DNA of 36,982 bases from Aquificaceae bacterium (GTDB lineage: Bacteria > Aquificota > Aquificia > Aquificales > Aquificaceae): contig JALWEG010000033.1 of NCBI GenBank assembly GCA_027014155.1, forward strand, positions 1-36,982. The letters are read 5' to 3'. Positions 17,812-36,982 of this stretch are shown here, piece after piece; position 1 is the first letter of the stretch; every line of letters starts with the position of its first letter. A program made the position numbers and the translations under genes. The notes under the pieces were generated by a model, which did no database searches, was not told the origin of the DNA, and worked only from the letters and a program-made list of their open reading frames with translations.

Positions 17812-19428
17812 ATGAAGCTCTTTGTAGTTGAGTCCCCCACCAAGGCGAAAACACTTCAAAGGTATTTAGGAAAGGGTTTCAAGGTCAAGGCTACCCTGGG
17901 ACATATAAAAGACCTGCCTCCCAAGGAATTGGGAGTTGACGAAGATAACCTCAAGGCGAAATACGTCTACCTCAGGGGTAAGAGGAAGCTGGTGGAAGGT
18001 ATAAAGAGGCTGGCAAAGAACTCGGAGGAGGTTTACATAGGCACGGACCCGGACAGAGAGGGAGAGGCCATAGCTTACTTCCTGAGAGAGGAAATACTTA
18101 AGGTAAATCCCAACGTAAAGAGGGTCAGGTTTTACGAGATTACCAAGGAGGCGATAAAAAACTCCCTCAGAGAGGCCGGAGAGCTTGATATAAACCTGGT
18201 ACATGCCCAGTTCTCCCGCAGGATTTTAGACAGACTCATAGGCTTCAAGCTATCTCCACGCCTATGGAGAGCTTACAGGGACTTTAAGCTTTCCGCCGGG
18301 AGAGTTCAATCTCCCGCACTGAGACTGATAGTGGAGAGGGAAAGAGAAATTCAGAGCTTCAAGGAGAAGAGCTACTACTACGTCAAGGCACAGGTGCGCA
18401 AGGGAGAGCAGACCTTCCTCCTTACCTACGACTACAGGTACGAGAAGCCCGCCAACGCCAAAGATATAGCCGATAGGATTGAAGAGGCCCTCTTCGTGGT
18501 AAAGAGCATCAAGGTAAACTCCCAGAAGGTTCCACCCCCAAAACCCTTTATAACCTCAAGCCTTCATGCGGAGGCCAACTCCAGGCTGGGACTGTCTGCG
18601 GAGAAGACCCAGAGGCTGGCACAGGCTCTCTACGAGAGGGGACTAATAACCTATCCGAGAACTGACAGCTTTAGAATGAACGAGAGAAAGGCCAAAGAGT
18701 TCATGAGCCACATAAAGAAGAGGTTAGGCCAGGAGTACGTAGGTAAGCTCAGGAGATTCAAAGAAAAGCCCACGGCGCAGGGTGCCCACGAGTGCATAAG
18801 GCCTACGGGACTGAAAAGCGTGAGCCTGAGCGGTGAAGAGGACGCCCTCTACAAGCTCATACTTGATAGAACCTTAGCATCGCTGATGAGTCCGGCGGTG
18901 GTGGAAAGGACGGAGGTTGAGGTGGAGGTCAGCACGCCCCGCCTGAGGAGTCCCATAATCATGAAAGCGAAAGGTTTGAAGATAGCCTTTGACGGCTGGT
19001 GTAGGGTTTACCCCTGCGGCCTTGAGGAGGCACCGTTGCCCCCCTTAGAGGAGGGAGAGGTGCTCAAGGTAGAAAAGGTGTTCCTTCAGGAGAGTAAGAC
19101 AAAGCCCCCTCCCAGATATACGGAAGGCTCTTTGATAAAGGCCTTAGAGAAGCTGGGAATAGGGAGGCCCTCCACCTACGCCTCTCTCGTGAAGAGCCTC
19201 AAGTCTAAAGGTTACGTTGAACTCCGCAGAGGCGCTCTGGTTCCCACCGAGAGGGCCTTTAAGGTGGTTGATTTCCTCATGGAGAGCTTCCCCGGACTTA
19301 TGGACTACAGGTTTACCGCCAGTATGGAAGAGAGGTTAGACCTGGTGGAAAAGGGAAGTGCCAACTGGAAGAGCGTAGTTAGGGATTACATGGGTTTGCT
19401 GTTTGATGGTGGCCCAGGGCGGACTTGA
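17812..19428 (+). CDS. topA: DNA topoisomerase I, short form without zinc domains
   Basis: A 538-residue type IA topoisomerase that relaxes negative supercoils. The TOPRIM domain starts MKLFVVESPTKAKTL and contains GTDPDREGEA (77-86). The catalytic Tyr is Y281 in LITYPRTDS. The SAGRVQSPAL box (161-170) and the QGAHECIRPT and GRPSTYASLV motifs are intact. The protein stops right after the core (FTASMEERLDLVEKGSANW), with no C-terminal zinc-ribbon modules, which many longer homologues carry. Its last 22 nt lie in antisense to the tRNA-Phe gene (19407-19428), so the tail GGPGRT is encoded by tRNA sequence. Confidence 0.95.
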   Translation: MKLFVVESPTKAKTLQRYLGKGFKVKATLGHIKDLPPKELGVDEDNLKAKYVYLRGKRKLVEGIKRLAKNSEEVYIGTDPDREGEAIAYFLREEILKVNPNVKRVRFYEITKEAIKNSLREAGELDINLVHAQFSRRILDRLIGFKLSPRLWRAYRDFKLSAGRVQSPALRLIVEREREIQSFKEKSYYYVKAQVRKGEQTFLLTYDYRYEKPANAKDIADRIEEALFVVKSIKVNSQKVPPPKPFITSSLHAEANSRLGLSAEKTQRLAQALYERGLITYPRTDSFRMNERKAKEFMSHIKKRLGQEYVGKLRRFKEKPTAQGAHECIRPTGLKSVSLSGEEDALYKLILDRTLASLMSPAVVERTEVEVEVSTPRLRSPIIMKAKGLKIAFDGWCRVYPCGLEEAPLPPLEEGEVLKVEKVFLQESKTKPPPRYTEGSLIKALEKLGIGRPSTYASLVKSLKSKGYVELRRGALVPTERAFKVVDFLMESFPGLMDYRFTASMEERLDLVEKGSANWKSVVRDYMGLLFDGGPGRT

Positions 19429-19482
19429 ACCGCCGACACCCCGGTTTTCAGCCGGGTGCTCTACCAACTGAGCTACCGGGCC
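19407..19482 (-). tRNA. tRNA-Phe (GAA), CCA encoded
   Basis: The minus strand reads GGCCCGGTAGCTCAGTTGGT for the 5' half. A 7-bp acceptor stem closes with one G-T pair. The D arm is normal, and the anticodon stem CCCGG/CCGGG encloses CTGAAAA with anticodon GAA. The T arm contains GGTTCAAGTCC. The 3' CCA is encoded (19407-19409). It lies downstream of spoT on the same strand with its own promoter, and its 3' end overlaps the opposing topA stop. Confidence 0.97.
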
Positions 19483-19495
19483 TTTGGGATAGATA

Positions 19496-19525
19496 ATTAT
19501 ATCCCATCTTGGAGCTACTTGTAAA
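19496..19525 (-). promoter_or_regulatory. promoter of tRNA-Phe, overlapping the end of spoT
   Basis: A -35 TTTACA (19520-19525, five of six) and perfect -10 TATAAT (19496-19501) with an 18-nt spacer on the minus strand. The start would be about 7 nt before the mature tRNA. The -35 overlaps the last spoT codons. Confidence 0.6.
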
Positions 19526-21620
19526 ACCTCGTGCACTTGTCAACACCCTCTATCTCCTTGAGGGAGCGCATAAGCTCCTGCAGATGTTTTTTCCCCTCTA
19601 CATCTATCACGAACTCCATGGAGGCCGTTCCGTTGCTGAGGCTGGCGCTCTTAGATTGGAAAACGTTGGAACCTCTCTTAGCAATCTCGGAGGTGACGTC
19701 GGACAGTATCCCCAGTCTGTCTTTTACCTCAAGCCTTATACGGGTCTTGAACTTACCCTTCGCCTGCCACTTGACCTTGAACACCCTCTCCGAAGAGCTG
19801 AGCATAATGCTCTTTAGATTTGAACAACCTTTTTCATGAATAACCAATCCCTTTCCCTTTACCACCACACCGTAAACCTCGTCGCCCGGAACGGGCATAC
19901 AGCAGTGGGCTACCCTATACTCTACGCCTTCAAGTCCTTCCAGCGATATTACGCCCCTGCCTTCCCTCTGAACCCTGGAAGTTTTTTGCTCCTTCCTCTC
20001 TAAGAGCTTATAAAGCCTCAGTAAAGACAGCTTTCCGCTCCCGAGTGCCAGCAGCAGCTCTTCCTCTTCGTTAAACCTGACCCTCTTCCTCAGAGATTCT
20101 ATAAGCTCCTCGTGGGAGACACCCATCTTTTGCCTTATCTTCTCCAGCAGTTTTCTACCTTCCGTCAGGTATCTTTCTCTATCTAACTGCTTTATATACT
20201 GCTTTATCTTGTTCTTGGCCCTTGAGGTTACCACGAAGTTGAGCCACGCCGGATTGGGCTTGCCACCGGGAGAGGTTATTATCTCAACCATCTCTCCGTT
20301 TCTGAGCTTGTAGTCCAGCGGCACTATCCTTCCGTTTACCTTTGCTCCCTTGCAGCTGTTTCCTACGTCGGTGTGTATGCGGTAGGCAAAGTCCACAGGG
20401 GTGGCTCCCTTGGGGAGAACCACTATGTCCCCCGCGGGGGTGAATACAAAAACCTCTTCGTAGAAGAGGTCTCTCTTTATGTTATCAAGCAGCTCGTTGG
20501 CGTCCTTGCTTCCCTGTATGCTCTCAACGAGGTCTCTGAGCCATACGAAGGTCTCACCCTCTTGTGCTCTTACGCCCTCTTTGTAAGCCCAGTGGGCGGC
20601 TATTCCCTTTTCGGCTCTTTCGTGCATCTCGTAGGTTCTTATCTGGAACTCAACCATCTTGCCTTTTGGTGCAACCACCGTGGTATGTATGGACTGGTAA
20701 AGGTTGGACTTAGGGACGGATATGTAGTCCTTAAACTTACCGGGCACCTGTGTAAAGAGGCTATGTATCAGTCCAAGAACCGAGTAGCACTCGGCAATAC
20801 TGTTTACTATAACTCTCACCCCCAGTATATCGTGAACGTCCTCAAGCCTTATATTCTTCCTTATGGTCTTCTGCCAAACGCTGTAAAGGTGCTTTGACCT
20901 GTACTGCAACGTGGCCTCTATCCCGTTTTTTCTCAAAATCTCCTTCACCGGAGGCACCACGAACTTTTCCAGATACTCTTTCAGCTTATCCCTTGACTCG
21001 CTTATAAAGCTTCTGACCCTTTGATACTCCTTGGGGTAGAGGTACATGAAAGCCAAGTCCTCAAGCTCCGTCTTTATACTCCACACCCCCAACCTGTGGG
21101 CTATGGGAGCGTATATCTCCAAGGTTTCACGGGCGATTCTTATCTGCTTCTCCTTCCTGAGGTATTTTAGAGTTCTCATATTGTGGAGCCTGTCGGCCAG
21201 CTTCACCACCATAACCCTGATATCCTTGGACATGGCCAACAGGAGCTTTCTGAAGTTCTCCGCCTGAGCCTCTTCTGCCCGTTTGAACTTCAGCTTACCT
21301 ATCTTGGTAACACCCTCCACTATATCCGCCACGTCTCTGCCAAACTTCCTGACCAGGTCATCGTAAGAGGTGTCCGTATCCTCAAGCACATCGTGGAGAA
21401 ACGCAGACACTATGCTGGTTATGTCCATGTTCATATCGGCGAGTATCTTGGCTACCTCTATAGGGTGGATTATGTAGGCTTCTCCCGAGGCTCTTTTTTG
21501 GTTTCCATGCTTATCTTTTATAAACTCGTAGGCTTTGAGTACTTTTTCCCTGTGCTCGGGATACCTTTCCAGTATCTCTTCAGTTATAATTTTGTCTTTA
21601 CTACCCTCTTTAAGTGCCAT
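19515..21620 (-). CDS. spoT: bifunctional (p)ppGpp synthetase/hydrolase, RelA/SpoT family
   Basis: A 701-residue stringent-response enzyme. In order: an HD hydrolase domain (AFLHDVLEDTD; VKLADRLHNMRTL), a RelA/SpoT synthetase domain (YRSKHLYSVWQK, DILGVRVIV, KDYISVPKSNLYQSIHTT, VEFQIRT), a TGS domain (VFVFTPAGDIVVLPKGATPVDFAY), a zinc-finger-like region (HCCMPVPGDEV) and a C-terminal ACT domain. Intact HD motifs suggest hydrolysis as well as synthesis. ATG 21620 is used because the upstream open frame lies entirely in antisense to mreB. No Shine-Dalgarno is present, but TATATT lies 7 nt upstream. It is the only long RSH protein in the window. Confidence 0.95.
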   Translation of the reverse strand: MALKEGSKDKIITEEILERYPEHREKVLKAYEFIKDKHGNQKRASGEAYIIHPIEVAKILADMNMDITSIVSAFLHDVLEDTDTSYDDLVRKFGRDVADIVEGVTKIGKLKFKRAEEAQAENFRKLLLAMSKDIRVMVVKLADRLHNMRTLKYLRKEKQIRIARETLEIYAPIAHRLGVWSIKTELEDLAFMYLYPKEYQRVRSFISESRDKLKEYLEKFVVPPVKEILRKNGIEATLQYRSKHLYSVWQKTIRKNIRLEDVHDILGVRVIVNSIAECYSVLGLIHSLFTQVPGKFKDYISVPKSNLYQSIHTTVVAPKGKMVEFQIRTYEMHERAEKGIAAHWAYKEGVRAQEGETFVWLRDLVESIQGSKDANELLDNIKRDLFYEEVFVFTPAGDIVVLPKGATPVDFAYRIHTDVGNSCKGAKVNGRIVPLDYKLRNGEMVEIITSPGGKPNPAWLNFVVTSRAKNKIKQYIKQLDRERYLTEGRKLLEKIRQKMGVSHEELIESLRKRVRFNEEEELLLALGSGKLSLLRLYKLLERKEQKTSRVQREGRGVISLEGLEGVEYRVAHCCMPVPGDEVYGVVVKGKGLVIHEKGCSNLKSIMLSSSERVFKVKWQAKGKFKTRIRLEVKDRLGILSDVTSEIAKRGSNVFQSKSASLSNGTASMEFVIDVEGKKHLQELMRSLKEIEGVDKCTRFYK

Positions 21621-33293: not shown

Positions 33294-34241
33294 ATGCGCA
33301 GAACCTTCCTATACGGAACGCTCCTCTTTGTGCTAATTCTGCTGGTCAGCTTGGGCTTTATAGTCTTTAAAACCTTTTCAAAGGAAACCCTATCGGCTCT
33401 GGCCGGCCTAAAGAGGAAGTACATATTCCTGTCGTTTCTTATTATCTTTCTCTATCATACCTTTGATAACCTAAGATTATTCATTCTCTCTAAAGCCTTG
33501 GGTGTGAGATACTCCCTCGGATACGGCTACATAATATCCTTTACAAACACCTTTGCCGCAACGGTGACTCCAGCGCACGTAGGAGGTGAGATGTCCTCCG
33601 TATACATGCTCCTCAGAAAAGGCGCCGGGCTTCACCGGGTCATGAGCATAGTGACCATGAAGACTATAACTGGAGCCTCCTTCTTCATCTTCATGCTCCC
33701 CGTCATGGCCTACTACCTCTACAAGCATCCGGAGGCACTGAGCAACACCCTCAGATTGCTGGGGATACTCTTAGCAGTGTCCGCTTTCGTTTACATTGCC
33801 GGCAGGCTCTTCTTCAACAGGAGCGAGAATAAACACCACAAGGAGAAGCTCAAGAAGTCCCTAAGGAGGTATCTGACCTACATGAAGCTCTTTGGCTACA
33901 AGAGAAAGAAGGAGGTGGTTCTTGCCACACTCTCAAGCATCACCCTGTACATCTGCTTCCTGCTCATAGCGCCTACCCTCATCATGGCCTTCGGCAAGGA
34001 TATAGACTTGGTTGAGGGGGTATTCACACAGCTGGGGTTGCTCTACGCCATATTCATGAGTCCGTCGCCGGGGGGCAGCGGTGTAGGTGAGCTGGGTGGG
34101 CTGGTAATATTTGCCAACTTCTTACAGCCTTACGAGATAGGTCTCTTCGTCCTCCTTTGGAGGTTTATAAGCCAATACATGAGCGCTCTCTTGGGAGGAG
34201 TGTTTTTCCTGATATGCCTCTGGATAGACTTAAGGAGATAG
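33294..34241 (+). CDS. LPG-synthase-TM (UPF0104)-like integral membrane protein
   Basis: A 315-residue membrane protein with about seven to eight hydrophobic helices. It shows the family phrases NTFAATVTPAHVGGEMSSVY (a polar Thr/Pro/His loop in a membrane helix) and MSPSPGGSGVGELG. This family corresponds to the membrane half of lysyl-phosphatidylglycerol synthase and includes lipid flippase-like proteins. There is no soluble lysyl-transferase domain, so it is not a full MprF. A lipid-handling role is supported by the overlap with lnt (28 nt), but the substrate is unknown. Confidence 0.83.
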   Translation: MRRTFLYGTLLFVLILLVSLGFIVFKTFSKETLSALAGLKRKYIFLSFLIIFLYHTFDNLRLFILSKALGVRYSLGYGYIISFTNTFAATVTPAHVGGEMSSVYMLLRKGAGLHRVMSIVTMKTITGASFFIFMLPVMAYYLYKHPEALSNTLRLLGILLAVSAFVYIAGRLFFNRSENKHHKEKLKKSLRRYLTYMKLFGYKRKKEVVLATLSSITLYICFLLIAPTLIMAFGKDIDLVEGVFTQLGLLYAIFMSPSPGGSGVGELGGLVIFANFLQPYEIGLFVLLWRFISQYMSALLGGVFFLICLWIDLRR

Positions 34242-35572
34242 GTAAGGCTTTACTCGTAGCGCTTCTGTTTCATCTACCCTTTTCCAAGCTAAACCTCTGG
34301 TTCCTCCTTCCCGTACCCTTCTTCTTACTGATAAGGGAGAGGTCCTTCCGTTTCTGGCTGCTTACGGGATTCTTCGCCTTCTTCCTGAGCTTGCACTGGG
34401 TTTACATAGCCTCTTACAGATACGGAGGTGTGAGCCTGCCGGTCTCCTGGCTTATGGTAGCTCTGCTGGCTCTGGTTCTGGCACTCTACCAGTTCGGTCT
34501 GAGCTTCCTTCTTTGGAAGCTCCTGGGTTTTAGGATTTGGGCCTTCCCGCTGGTCTGGGTCCTCGTTGAGCTGATGCGTTCCTTTCTCCCCTACGGAGGC
34601 TTTCCTTGGATTCTAATGGGCAGCGTCCTGATGGAGGTTCCGATACTCAAGTTTCTCCTGAGCACGGTGAAGGTCTATGGGGGCAGCCTCCTGGTGCTGA
34701 CCGGTGTAGTGTTGACTTATACGAAGCACAAGAAGGCGAGCCTAACGTTCGCACTGGCCGTGGGCGGGCTAATCTACCTGAGCCTCTGGAATTACTACTC
34801 AAAGGTAAGTCCCCGAAAAGAAAAACCTTTTCGGGTTGCCATCGTGCAGCCGGCCATACCTCAGGACGTAAAGCTGTCCGACGAAGCCTTCAGGAGAGCG
34901 TACCCCCTATACCTTGAGCTTATAGAGGAGGCTCTAAGGCGAGGCGCTCAGCTTATAATACTTCCCGAGTCTGCCTTCCCCTTCTTCGTTTCCGAGCTGG
35001 GCTACGAGGGCAAAGAGATTCTGGAACTTTCCAAAAGGGTTCCAATAGTGGTAGGTATGGTGGACGTGGACTTTGATGCGCGCATAGCCTACAACTCTGT
35101 ACTCGCAATAAAGAACTACAAGATTGTAGACAGGTACGATAAGGTTAGACTCCTTCCCTTCGGAGAGTATATACCCCAACCCTTCGGGTTTGTGAAAGAG
35201 CTGTTTCCCGCCGTGTCGGGCATAGACTACTTACCGGGAAGAGAGTTAAAGCCTCTAAATCTGGGAAGCCTTAAGGTGGCCACGCCGGTGTGCTTTGAGG
35301 TGGCCTACTGCCGTTTGGTCAAGGAGCTTTCCGCAAACGCAGACCTTATAGCTGTCCTAACTAACGATGCGTGGTTTGAGGACTCTTTGGGCACCTATCA
35401 GCACATGAGACTCGCGCGCTTGCGAGCCTTAGAGAACTCTAAATATGTCCTTTGGGTCAACAACACGGGGCCTTCGGCGGTGATATCTCCGGAAGGCCAA
35501 ATCTTAAAGGCCACCGAGTACGGCAAGGCTCAGATTCTCGTGTATGAGGTGCCTTTAGTAAGTGTCAAATAG
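34214..35572 (+). CDS. lnt: apolipoprotein N-acyltransferase
   Basis: A 452-residue inner-membrane enzyme that adds the third acyl chain to lipoproteins. Six to seven N-terminal helices are followed by a nitrilase-like domain with E252 (LPESAFPF), K310 (YDKVRLLPFGEYIP) and C360 (TPVCFEVAY), the catalytic triad. ATG 34214 is chosen; the open frame extends to a TTG at 34157 that lies deep in the upstream gene. GGAGGAG lies 13 nt before the ATG. The lipoproteins in this window (HtrA-like, FN3-like) would be substrates. TATAAT follows 1 nt after the stop, at the start of the AT-rich region. Confidence 0.94.
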   Translation: MPLDRLKEIGKALLVALLFHLPFSKLNLWFLLPVPFFLLIRERSFRFWLLTGFFAFFLSLHWVYIASYRYGGVSLPVSWLMVALLALVLALYQFGLSFLLWKLLGFRIWAFPLVWVLVELMRSFLPYGGFPWILMGSVLMEVPILKFLLSTVKVYGGSLLVLTGVVLTYTKHKKASLTFALAVGGLIYLSLWNYYSKVSPRKEKPFRVAIVQPAIPQDVKLSDEAFRRAYPLYLELIEEALRRGAQLIILPESAFPFFVSELGYEGKEILELSKRVPIVVGMVDVDFDARIAYNSVLAIKNYKIVDRYDKVRLLPFGEYIPQPFGFVKELFPAVSGIDYLPGRELKPLNLGSLKVATPVCFEVAYCRLVKELSANADLIAVLTNDAWFEDSLGTYQHMRLARLRALENSKYVLWVNNTGPSAVISPEGQILKATEYGKAQILVYEVPLVSVK

Positions 35573-35596
35573 TATAATAGATACTGACGATATAAT
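35573..35596 (+). promoter_or_regulatory. two tandem TATAAT boxes in front of the hairpin RNA/RT region
   Basis: Perfect TATAAT hexamers occur at 35573-35578 and 35591-35596, 18 nt apart. Initiation from the second would fall near 35603, at the first base of the GC-rich hairpin arm. No good -35 at 16-18 nt was found for either. Confidence 0.45.
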
Positions 35597-35603
35597 TATT
35601 AAT

Positions 35604-35667
35604 GCGCCGAGGGTGATGCCTTTATCATTAATTATCATAACCTCTCACAAGTCCCCTCGGCGCTTTT
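35604..35667 (+). ncRNA. candidate structured RNA or long-loop terminator upstream of the RT
   Basis: Ten bases GCGCCGAGGG (35604-35613) pair perfectly with CCCTCGGCGC (35654-35663) around a 40-nt AT-rich loop, followed by TTTT. The loop contains a repeated 7-mer TTATCAT spaced 10 nt apart. The 5' arm sits where transcription from the second TATAAT would begin. Either this is a small RNA of about 60-65 nt with a closing stem, or it is the terminator of the lnt operon with an unusually big loop. Total size is short for a retron msr-msd. Confidence 0.4.
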
Positions 35668-35680
35668 ATAGGTTTTAGCC

Positions 35681-36982
35681 ATGGAATGGACGTTTAGTAA
35701 ACAGGATATTGAAAATGTTAAAATAGGGTAGGAAAGGAGAAGGGATAAAATAAAGGAATTATCAAAATATAGTCTTAAAAGAAAAAAGTATAGTACCGTA
35801 GATAAACTAAATAGATGGATAGAAAGTTTACATGGAATTTTAAGCCAAGAAGAGGAAGTGGAAAAATTACTGGACGACTTAAATAGGGATGTATACAAAT
35901 TCTCACCTTTTAAGTTCATCTTTTACATAGATAAATATTTTCTTAAACTGAGGACTACTCTGAAGATTGTAGGCGCTAACGGTATCCAGCTAAGTAATAA
36001 TAAAGCATTTTATGATTTTCTTGTATCAAAGCTTATAGCTAATAAGGTTTTTGAATTCTTGAAAGAAAAAGACTTACTTATGCCACCGAGGAACAAGGCT
36101 ATTTCTGAACTTGTGCGTAAGTTGAGAGATGAAAACAACTTAAAGATAATAAAAGGTGATTTTGTAAGTTATACACAGAATATCCCCAGAAAAAGTTTAG
36201 AAAAGGAACTTAGAAATTTTTTAGATATTCCAGATAATGTTGTAAATTTAATATTAGCTTATTTAGAAGCTGGTAATACATTTTCTGTTAAAACAAAAAC
36301 GTACGATATAAGATCTTTCTTTTCTAAAATTAGATTCGAAAACGATTATTTATTTGACGGAGACTTTAGATCTATCATAAATGAAAGTGGTGTGCTTGCG
36401 GGCACACCTATATCAACCCTGCTTGGTCACGTCTTTTTATTGAGATTTGACAAAAAAATGAAAGAAATTGCCACTGGTAATGGATTTTATTGTCGATATA
36501 ATGATGATTTTATTCTATTATATCCGAGTAATTTGGAATTTAATGTAGTAAAGAGCGAAATAATAAACTTCATCAGGGATTTATACGATTTAAGAGGAAG
36601 GGATTTACAGGACATAGAAAGAAAAGTGGTGAGGATAGATAACCTGAAGGTAGGAAAGGATATAGATTTTCTTGGATACATTTTGAAAAAAACACATGTA
36701 GGTGGCGAAAACGGCGGAAATAAAAAAAGGCCAACTGTATCTATAAGTATAAGATACAAAACTTTAAAAAAATTCATATTTAAGTACATAATAGAGTATA
36801 AACTTGCAGAAAAAGAAATTGATTATAGATTAAAGAATATAAAAAATAAGGAAAAAGATGATGAAATTAGAAGATACATAGCTGCAAAGGCAATATATTT
36901 AAATAATTGGCTTTTAAGTTTCATACATATAAACGACAAAGATTTATTATACTTGTTATATATAAAATTTGTACACCCTGAT
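35681..36982 (+). CDS. divergent reverse transcriptase, 3' end beyond window, in-frame TAG at codon 17
   Basis: From ATG 35681 the frame encodes 16 codons, a TAG (35729-35731), then 417 open codons to the window edge. Reverse-transcriptase motifs are in order: KIIKGDFVSYTQNI with the motif-A Asp (36158-36160), a GTPIS motif B (36401-36415), the YNDD catalytic box in YCRYNDDFILL (36497-36508) and the DFLGY motif (36665-36679), followed by a Lys-rich helical region like a thumb. No retron VTG, maturase or HNH domain is seen. No good start exists soon after the TAG, although AAAGGAG (35733-35739) lies there. So the gene is a recent nonsense mutant, is read through, or starts at a non-standard codon. 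Base composition is about 30% GC versus about 50% elsewhere, suggesting transfer. The RT class is unresolved; a UG/DRT or Abi-type defence RT is my best guess. Confidence 0.8.

Follow-up and report, generated by a model that had tools for sequence, protein, structure and literature searches.

A DRT-like reverse transcriptase of Aquificota and a folded RNA preceding its gene in two intact relatives

What kind of enzyme is encoded by the A+T-rich reverse transcriptase (RT) gene that runs off the end of an Aquificaceae contig, and what would it copy? The gene lies at the right edge of contig JALWEG010000033.1 (assembly GCA_027014155.1), the whole of which, 36,982 bases, was analysed and is called the window here. 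An earlier inspection of the letters alone, referred to below as the sequence-only reading, had likened the RT to unknown-group (UG) and defence-associated reverse transcriptase (DRT) enzymes and considered that it could be a new subtype. Profile, tree and structure comparisons indicate that the RT most likely belongs to a lineage of the class-2 UG/DRT assemblage that had not been classified before, with DRT10, DRT3a, DRT2 and DRT9 as its kin. At a probability of roughly 50%, it would represent a new class-2 DRT-like subtype that makes repeat cDNA on a template in its leader RNA. The gene and its parts are as follows.

35681-36982, plus strand: 5' part of the RT gene, starting at ATG; codon 17 is TAG, no further stop occurs before the contig ends, and the C-terminal part is missing
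35729-35731, plus strand: in-frame TAG, placed by alignment inside an N-terminal helix; the aligned residue is Ile (G043) or Leu (G013) in the intact homologues
35732-36982, plus strand: 417-codon open frame, RT fingers-palm-thumb (protein P0001)
36158-36175, plus strand: motif A DFVSYT, with catalytic Asp143 (36158-36160) and Thr148 (36173-36175) at D+5, the sugar steric-gate position
36389-36415, plus strand: motif B GVLAGTPIS, with Ala in place of the Gln of most RTs (PQG)
36497-36508, plus strand: YNDD catalytic box
36671-36679, plus strand: LGY motif (FLGY)

The frame 35732-36982 is uninterrupted for 417 codons up to the end of the contig, and its product carries motif A as GDFVSYTQNIP (D143), motif B at residues 220-228, RYNDDF at 255-260 and FLGY at 313-316, the stretch directly ahead of motif A being PRNKAISELVRKLRD, which the sequence-only reading had likened to UG/DRT RTs. 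RT homology is evident from the PADLOC profiles RT_UG17 (5.6e-15), Drt3a (2.4e-13) and Drt2 (1.2e-12) and from NCBIfam Drt2 (6.3e-13), while Pfam RVT_1 gave just 3.4e-4, below the cut-off of that model. The motif-A Asp, GTPIS, YNDD and LGY that had been read from the frame by eye are confirmed, and the impression of A+T-richness holds as well, the G+C content of the RT gene being 28.9% against 51.3% for the remaining window. The missing C-terminal part, which the sequence-only reading had advised recovering, was sought on the other contigs of the genome and not found there. Full-length homologues are present in two other Aquificota genomes, G013 (about 480 aa) and G043 (511 aa); both align over the whole length of the window RT and preserve the motif A Asp, motif B, xxDD and FLGY, so that the motifs do persist in homologous genomes.

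The frame had previously been taken from after the TAG, and a nonsense codon within a conserved N-terminal part was thereby missed. The window sequence MEWTFSKQDIENVKIG*ERRRDKIKEL (asterisk, TAG) matches FSVEDLEKLKKRIEERIKEVEL of the G043 protein without gaps, across the TAG. Because the region before the TAG aligns ungapped with the homologues, ATG 35681 is taken from this alignment as the ancestral start of the gene, with the first 16 codons as part of it. Behind the TAG there may be a mutation or an error, or translation may begin later, for example at GTG 35858; the window copy is either disrupted or starts late, and is probably damaged.

For all three Aquificota RTs, the best profiles are of the class-2 UG/DRT type, namely RT_UG17, Drt3a, Drt2 and UG4. 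Against the UG17/DRT10 model they score 49-66 bits, compared with 542 for a true DRT10 (P0004, locus L060, accompanied by a SLATT gene), and on this ground they are considered related to DRT10 without being members of it. In a tree of 26 RTs, a set that leaves out retrons, DRT9, UG4, telomerase reverse transcriptase (TERT) and class 1, the Aquificota RTs form one clade (support 100/99), which joins DRT10 and DRT3a (81/85) and next DRT2 (80/80). The nearest sequences in the PDB are DRT2 RTs (2.8e-12), and an AlphaFold model of the G043 protein (mean confidence, pLDDT, 75; built with three sequences) finds its nearest folds in G2L4 RT, DRT9, group II and DRT2 enzymes, with TERT appearing too. 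The UG/DRT assignment proposed from the letters is thus borne out, and a new subtype is plausible, with a clade of its own and scores well under that of a true DRT10 and under the Drt2 and Drt3a cut-offs.

By the tests run, other RT types fit less well, as the sequence-only reading had held. Grouping with group II RTs is rejected by the approximately unbiased (AU) test (p 0.029), the maturase model scores 43 of the required 300 bits, and the Rfam searches found no intron RNA. The retron RT model reaches 24.6 of 235 bits, and P0001 contains no VTG. No long direct repeat of the kind expected for a diversity-generating retroelement (DGR) was seen near the window RT on the upstream side, the downstream side being missing, and the AU test does not reject a grouping with DGR RTs (p 0.061).

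The intact relatives carry folded RNA in front of the RT, and a hairpin occupies the corresponding place in the window.

L005 2236-2304, 2323-2405, 2503-2577, 2595-2670 and 2689-2753: five hairpins upstream of the G043 RT
L004 14911-14841, minus strand: one hairpin upstream of the G013 RT
35573-35578, plus strand: TATAAT, a -10-like hexamer upstream of the window hairpin; a consensus scan called no promoter on this strand
35604-35663, plus strand: window leader hairpin, a perfect 10-bp G+C-rich stem (35604-35613/35654-35663) around a 40-nt A+T-rich loop, fold z -4.3
35622-35638, plus strand: A-B-A' direct repeat TTATCAT-TAA-TTATCAT in the loop of that hairpin, a candidate template with a 10-nt period, shuffle p 0.008-0.020

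In the relatives, the element consists of an outer stem GGCGGGRC/GYCCCGCC enclosing a variable loop, CCCC, an inner stem-loop and AGAGG. A covariance model built from two G043 copies found the G013 copy upstream of its RT with an E value of 1.4e-5; a scan for hairpins of fixed spacing misses three of the six copies, and the covariance model was used instead. Standard pairs fill 98% of the pair cells over the six copies, and at 10 of the 17 pairs both partners vary; the fitting of the alignment to the structure biases this count toward it. None of 500 shuffles equalled the observed covariation, and sliding the structure lowered pairing to 44-50%. When run over 136 Aquificota genomes, the refined model hit six places only, all directly upstream of the intact RT in two genomes, and no Rfam family matches the element. 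A dispersed repeat, such as a mobile RNA resembling repetitive extragenic palindromes (REP) or short interspersed nuclear elements (SINE), was considered and rejected, since the covariance-model searches place the element at RT loci only; matches from a looser pattern search are mostly background according to a reversed control. The two relatives therefore possess an RNA element with covariation, sited exclusively before the RT; this does not extend to the window copy. The window hairpin ends 18 nt before the RT ATG and the G013 element 20 nt before its start, and with filters off the element model (R1) matches nothing in the stretch between lnt and the RT better than this hairpin (E value 0.054 in 451 bases). 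By position it is possibly a diverged counterpart of the element, weakly matched by the model; alternatively, it could be the lnt terminator with a long loop.

DRT2, DRT3a, DRT9 and DRT10, the class-2 systems covered by the literature consulted, use a non-coding RNA (ncRNA) as template (PMC12632851, PMC13174585, PMC12483538), and the DRT10 ncRNAs have an A-B-A' arrangement in the template loop, in which A' re-aligns the cDNA (PMC12632851). In each Aquificota loop, the longest direct repeat with a period from 4 to 16 was sought. In addition to the window repeat, three G043 loops contain TTCTG (L5c, period 12), TTTAG (L5d, period 10) and TCAATC (L5e, period 8), with a joint p of 0.001 for mononucleotide to 0.006 for dinucleotide shuffles. 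The presence in several loops of a pattern like that of DRT10 and telomerase templates is suggestive only.

According to the favoured explanation, the RT and a structured RNA from its own leader would form a small ribonucleoprotein, within which a short stretch of the variable loop would be copied repeatedly. By way of the A-B-A' repeat, the product would slip backwards and anneal anew, in the manner of DRT10 and telomerase, and the resulting tandem-repeat cDNA would serve phage defence. We infer RNA binding, the template role, repeat synthesis and the defence output, the last of these from the kin of the enzyme alone.

The active site raises a separate question about the product. Motif A position D+5 is the steric gate that excludes ribonucleotides from RTs (PMC4634563, PMC8857657). 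In an ungapped alignment register, it is Phe or Tyr in all 17 DRT, group II and DGR reference RTs, Thr in the three Aquificota RTs and Gly in 30 of 30 mycobacterial RTs; the motif B Gln is replaced by Ala or Pro in the Aquificota RTs and by Met in most of the mycobacterial ones. These residues suggest that the Aquificota RTs could have relaxed their sugar selection. The mycobacterial RTs (loci L013-L042, for example L013 7578-8909) make up a conserved chromosomal mycobacterial/actinobacterial family of about 444 aa with an LQSDFxxYG motif A and FYARYNDD. At L013 a membrane-protein-like gene lies upstream and its end overlaps with the start of the RT, and the one RT of this type that was scanned had no good match to any UG model.

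The RT gene was found in three of the 136 Aquificota genomes, spanning three genera and two families; the G013 and G043 genomes are bins sharing one sample label (L_MaxBin.005 and.033). Neighbouring genes differ at all three loci, the window having the following gene upstream.

34157-35572, plus strand: lnt (apolipoprotein N-acyltransferase), context that is not kept beside the RT in the relatives

At the other loci the neighbours are nuo genes with a phosphoesterase-like gene, and an inosine triphosphatase (ITPase)-like gene with a 2-oxoacid ferredoxin oxidoreductase-like gene. The RT does stand alone, as had been stated; the description of it as next to lnt overlooked the hairpin between the two, and that neighbourhood is not conserved. 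The distribution, the varied neighbours and the low G+C content are what a stand-alone gene that moves laterally would show. Two sister genomes have lnt followed by a convergent RSH gene and no RT. An empty-site comparison at lnt leaves the insertion point unreadable, since RSH is located elsewhere in the genome of the window. Within the window RSH (19410-20984, minus strand) adjoins a tRNA gene away from lnt, and in two related genomes lnt and RSH are convergent and overlapping, pointing to a local rearrangement. Two IMG/VR scans revealed no viral homologues of the RT. Beyond the two Aquificota loci, the remaining matches of the contig search, with 25-47% over short segments, are RTs of mycobacteria or other actinobacteria. 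Part of the UG17-profile matches in Aquificota are proteins like those of long interspersed nuclear elements (LINE) or unrelated genes. At two loci (L055, G027:C152; L056, G087:C130), long proteins that combine an endonuclease with an RT resemble eukaryotic LINE elements; these contigs are probably contamination. In another Aquificota family, L052 (G132:C2, about 1393034-1393423) encodes a large RT with a nitrilase-like C-terminal part, recalling UG5-nitrilase.

Several results weigh against repeat synthesis on a leader template by a class-2 DRT-like RT. The deeper branches of the tree have weak support (80-85), and the AU test did not reject grouping the Aquificota RTs with DGR (p 0.061), DRT10 (0.053), DRT2 (0.13), DRT3a (0.17) or mycobacterial RTs (0.15). 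The window hairpin is without the inner stem-loop of the element, and the R2 model is not significant there (E value 0.91 in 2.8 kb). No repeat better than in shuffles occurs in L5a and L5b, two of the five G043 loops, or in the loop of G013, and the joint p value is optimistic, with L5c and L5d being near-duplicates and the loop limits set by hand. No defence genes were recognised beside any of the three RT loci.

The folded RNA might instead be a regulatory leader, with the RT or another factor binding the mRNA hairpins and controlling its own synthesis while the enzyme copies something else or works untemplated. In the window and in G013 the element ends 18-20 nt ahead of the start codon, and such a leader position fits autoregulation; nevertheless, five tandem G043 copies with constant stems and varying loops better fit variable templates, and the upstream ncRNAs of class-2 relatives serve as templates, which leaves this reading unlikely, if worth keeping in view. 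A bolder variant keeps the templates and changes the product: the RT would draw on several telomerase-like RNA templates in tandem, and its remodelled sugar pocket, with a Thr gate and no motif B Gln, would yield RNA or mixed RNA/DNA repeats, not pure cDNA. This is regarded as improbable.

Another reading, judged distinctly unlikely, is that the RT has no role today, being a degenerate or domesticated enzyme (perhaps derived from group II), and that the window copy is a pseudogene. The nonsense codon at codon 17, the patchy occurrence in 3 of 136 genomes and the A+T-rich character of a recent arrival are in its favour, but two intact full-length homologues keep their catalytic residues with a covarying RNA alongside, and a group II origin meets the AU rejection and lack of intron RNA given above. 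Finally, the Aquificota RT could belong with the chromosomal mycobacterial family (30 loci; motif A DFxxYxxNxP, FYARYNDD), with altered nucleotide selection and outside the DRTs. A BLASTP match to P0008 (E value 1e-10) is in favour, and neither group has an aromatic steric gate (Thr and Gly, respectively) or the motif B Gln. However, in the tree those RTs sit next to group II, on a branch of length 2.8, though the joint grouping is unrejected, and the retrieval pattern FY[AC]R[FY][LN]DD itself selected for the shared YxDD context; this affiliation appears very improbable.

If repeat cDNA synthesis on a leader template is correct, an RT-plus-RNA system from thermophiles would join the class in which bacterial kin of telomerase have been proposed and, unlike DRT10, would have no SLATT partner. 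Its template-like RNAs would stand in tandem arrays, an arrangement for which no description was found in the papers searched. Structural studies could profit from heat-stable members, and the steric-gate residues (Thr or Gly) make it possible to test directly whether certain bacterial RTs have stopped excluding ribonucleotides. The significance is limited by the damage and truncation of the window copy and by there being three members only.

Among known systems, DRT10 (UG17) is a class-2 UG RT whose profile is the best for the window and G013 proteins; it shares a structured RNA upstream, a stable stem followed by A-B-A' repeats and a similar C-terminal stretch, W..xF..[IV]ND.KLL..L. It differs in its SLATT partner, no such gene being recognised beside the RT at the two intact loci, L004 and L005 (the downstream side of the window is missing), in the steric gate, which is Thr in Aquificota, and in its RNA of 137 nt, compared with an Aquificota element of 65-83 nt present in tandem copies. 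The DRT10 and DRT2 loci compared had no match to this element. In motif B of a DRT10-like RT on the Rhodococcus plasmid pGD02.2.2 (L086), PAG replaces PQG, and the stretch examined has no SLATT gene annotated. DRT3a is among the best profiles and is the nearest tree branch (an Erysipelothrix phage protein), a position that depends on a branch 2.4 long; the score against Drt3a is 44.5 bits, under the cut-off of 200, and no second RT (Drt3b) adjoins the gene at L004 and L005, nor is there an ACACAC template loop. DRT2 (UG2) likewise consists of an RT alone with an ncRNA upstream and provides the closest solved structures by sequence, but the Aquificota RTs fall outside the DRT2 clade and score 48.7 and 49.7 bits, the latter being the highest, against the NCBIfam Drt2 cut-off of 390. 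DRT9 (UG28) differs in its poly-U loop, absent here, and Drt9 is not among the listed profile matches; it resembles the Aquificota system in having an ncRNA directly upstream of the RT and in fold (9vku, 1.3e-06). Telomerase (TERT and its RNA, TR) is comparable to the Aquificota RTs in the RT core only, with a weak fold match (6usr, 1.9e-04), and by analogy the candidate templates would share with it an alignment repeat beside a stem.
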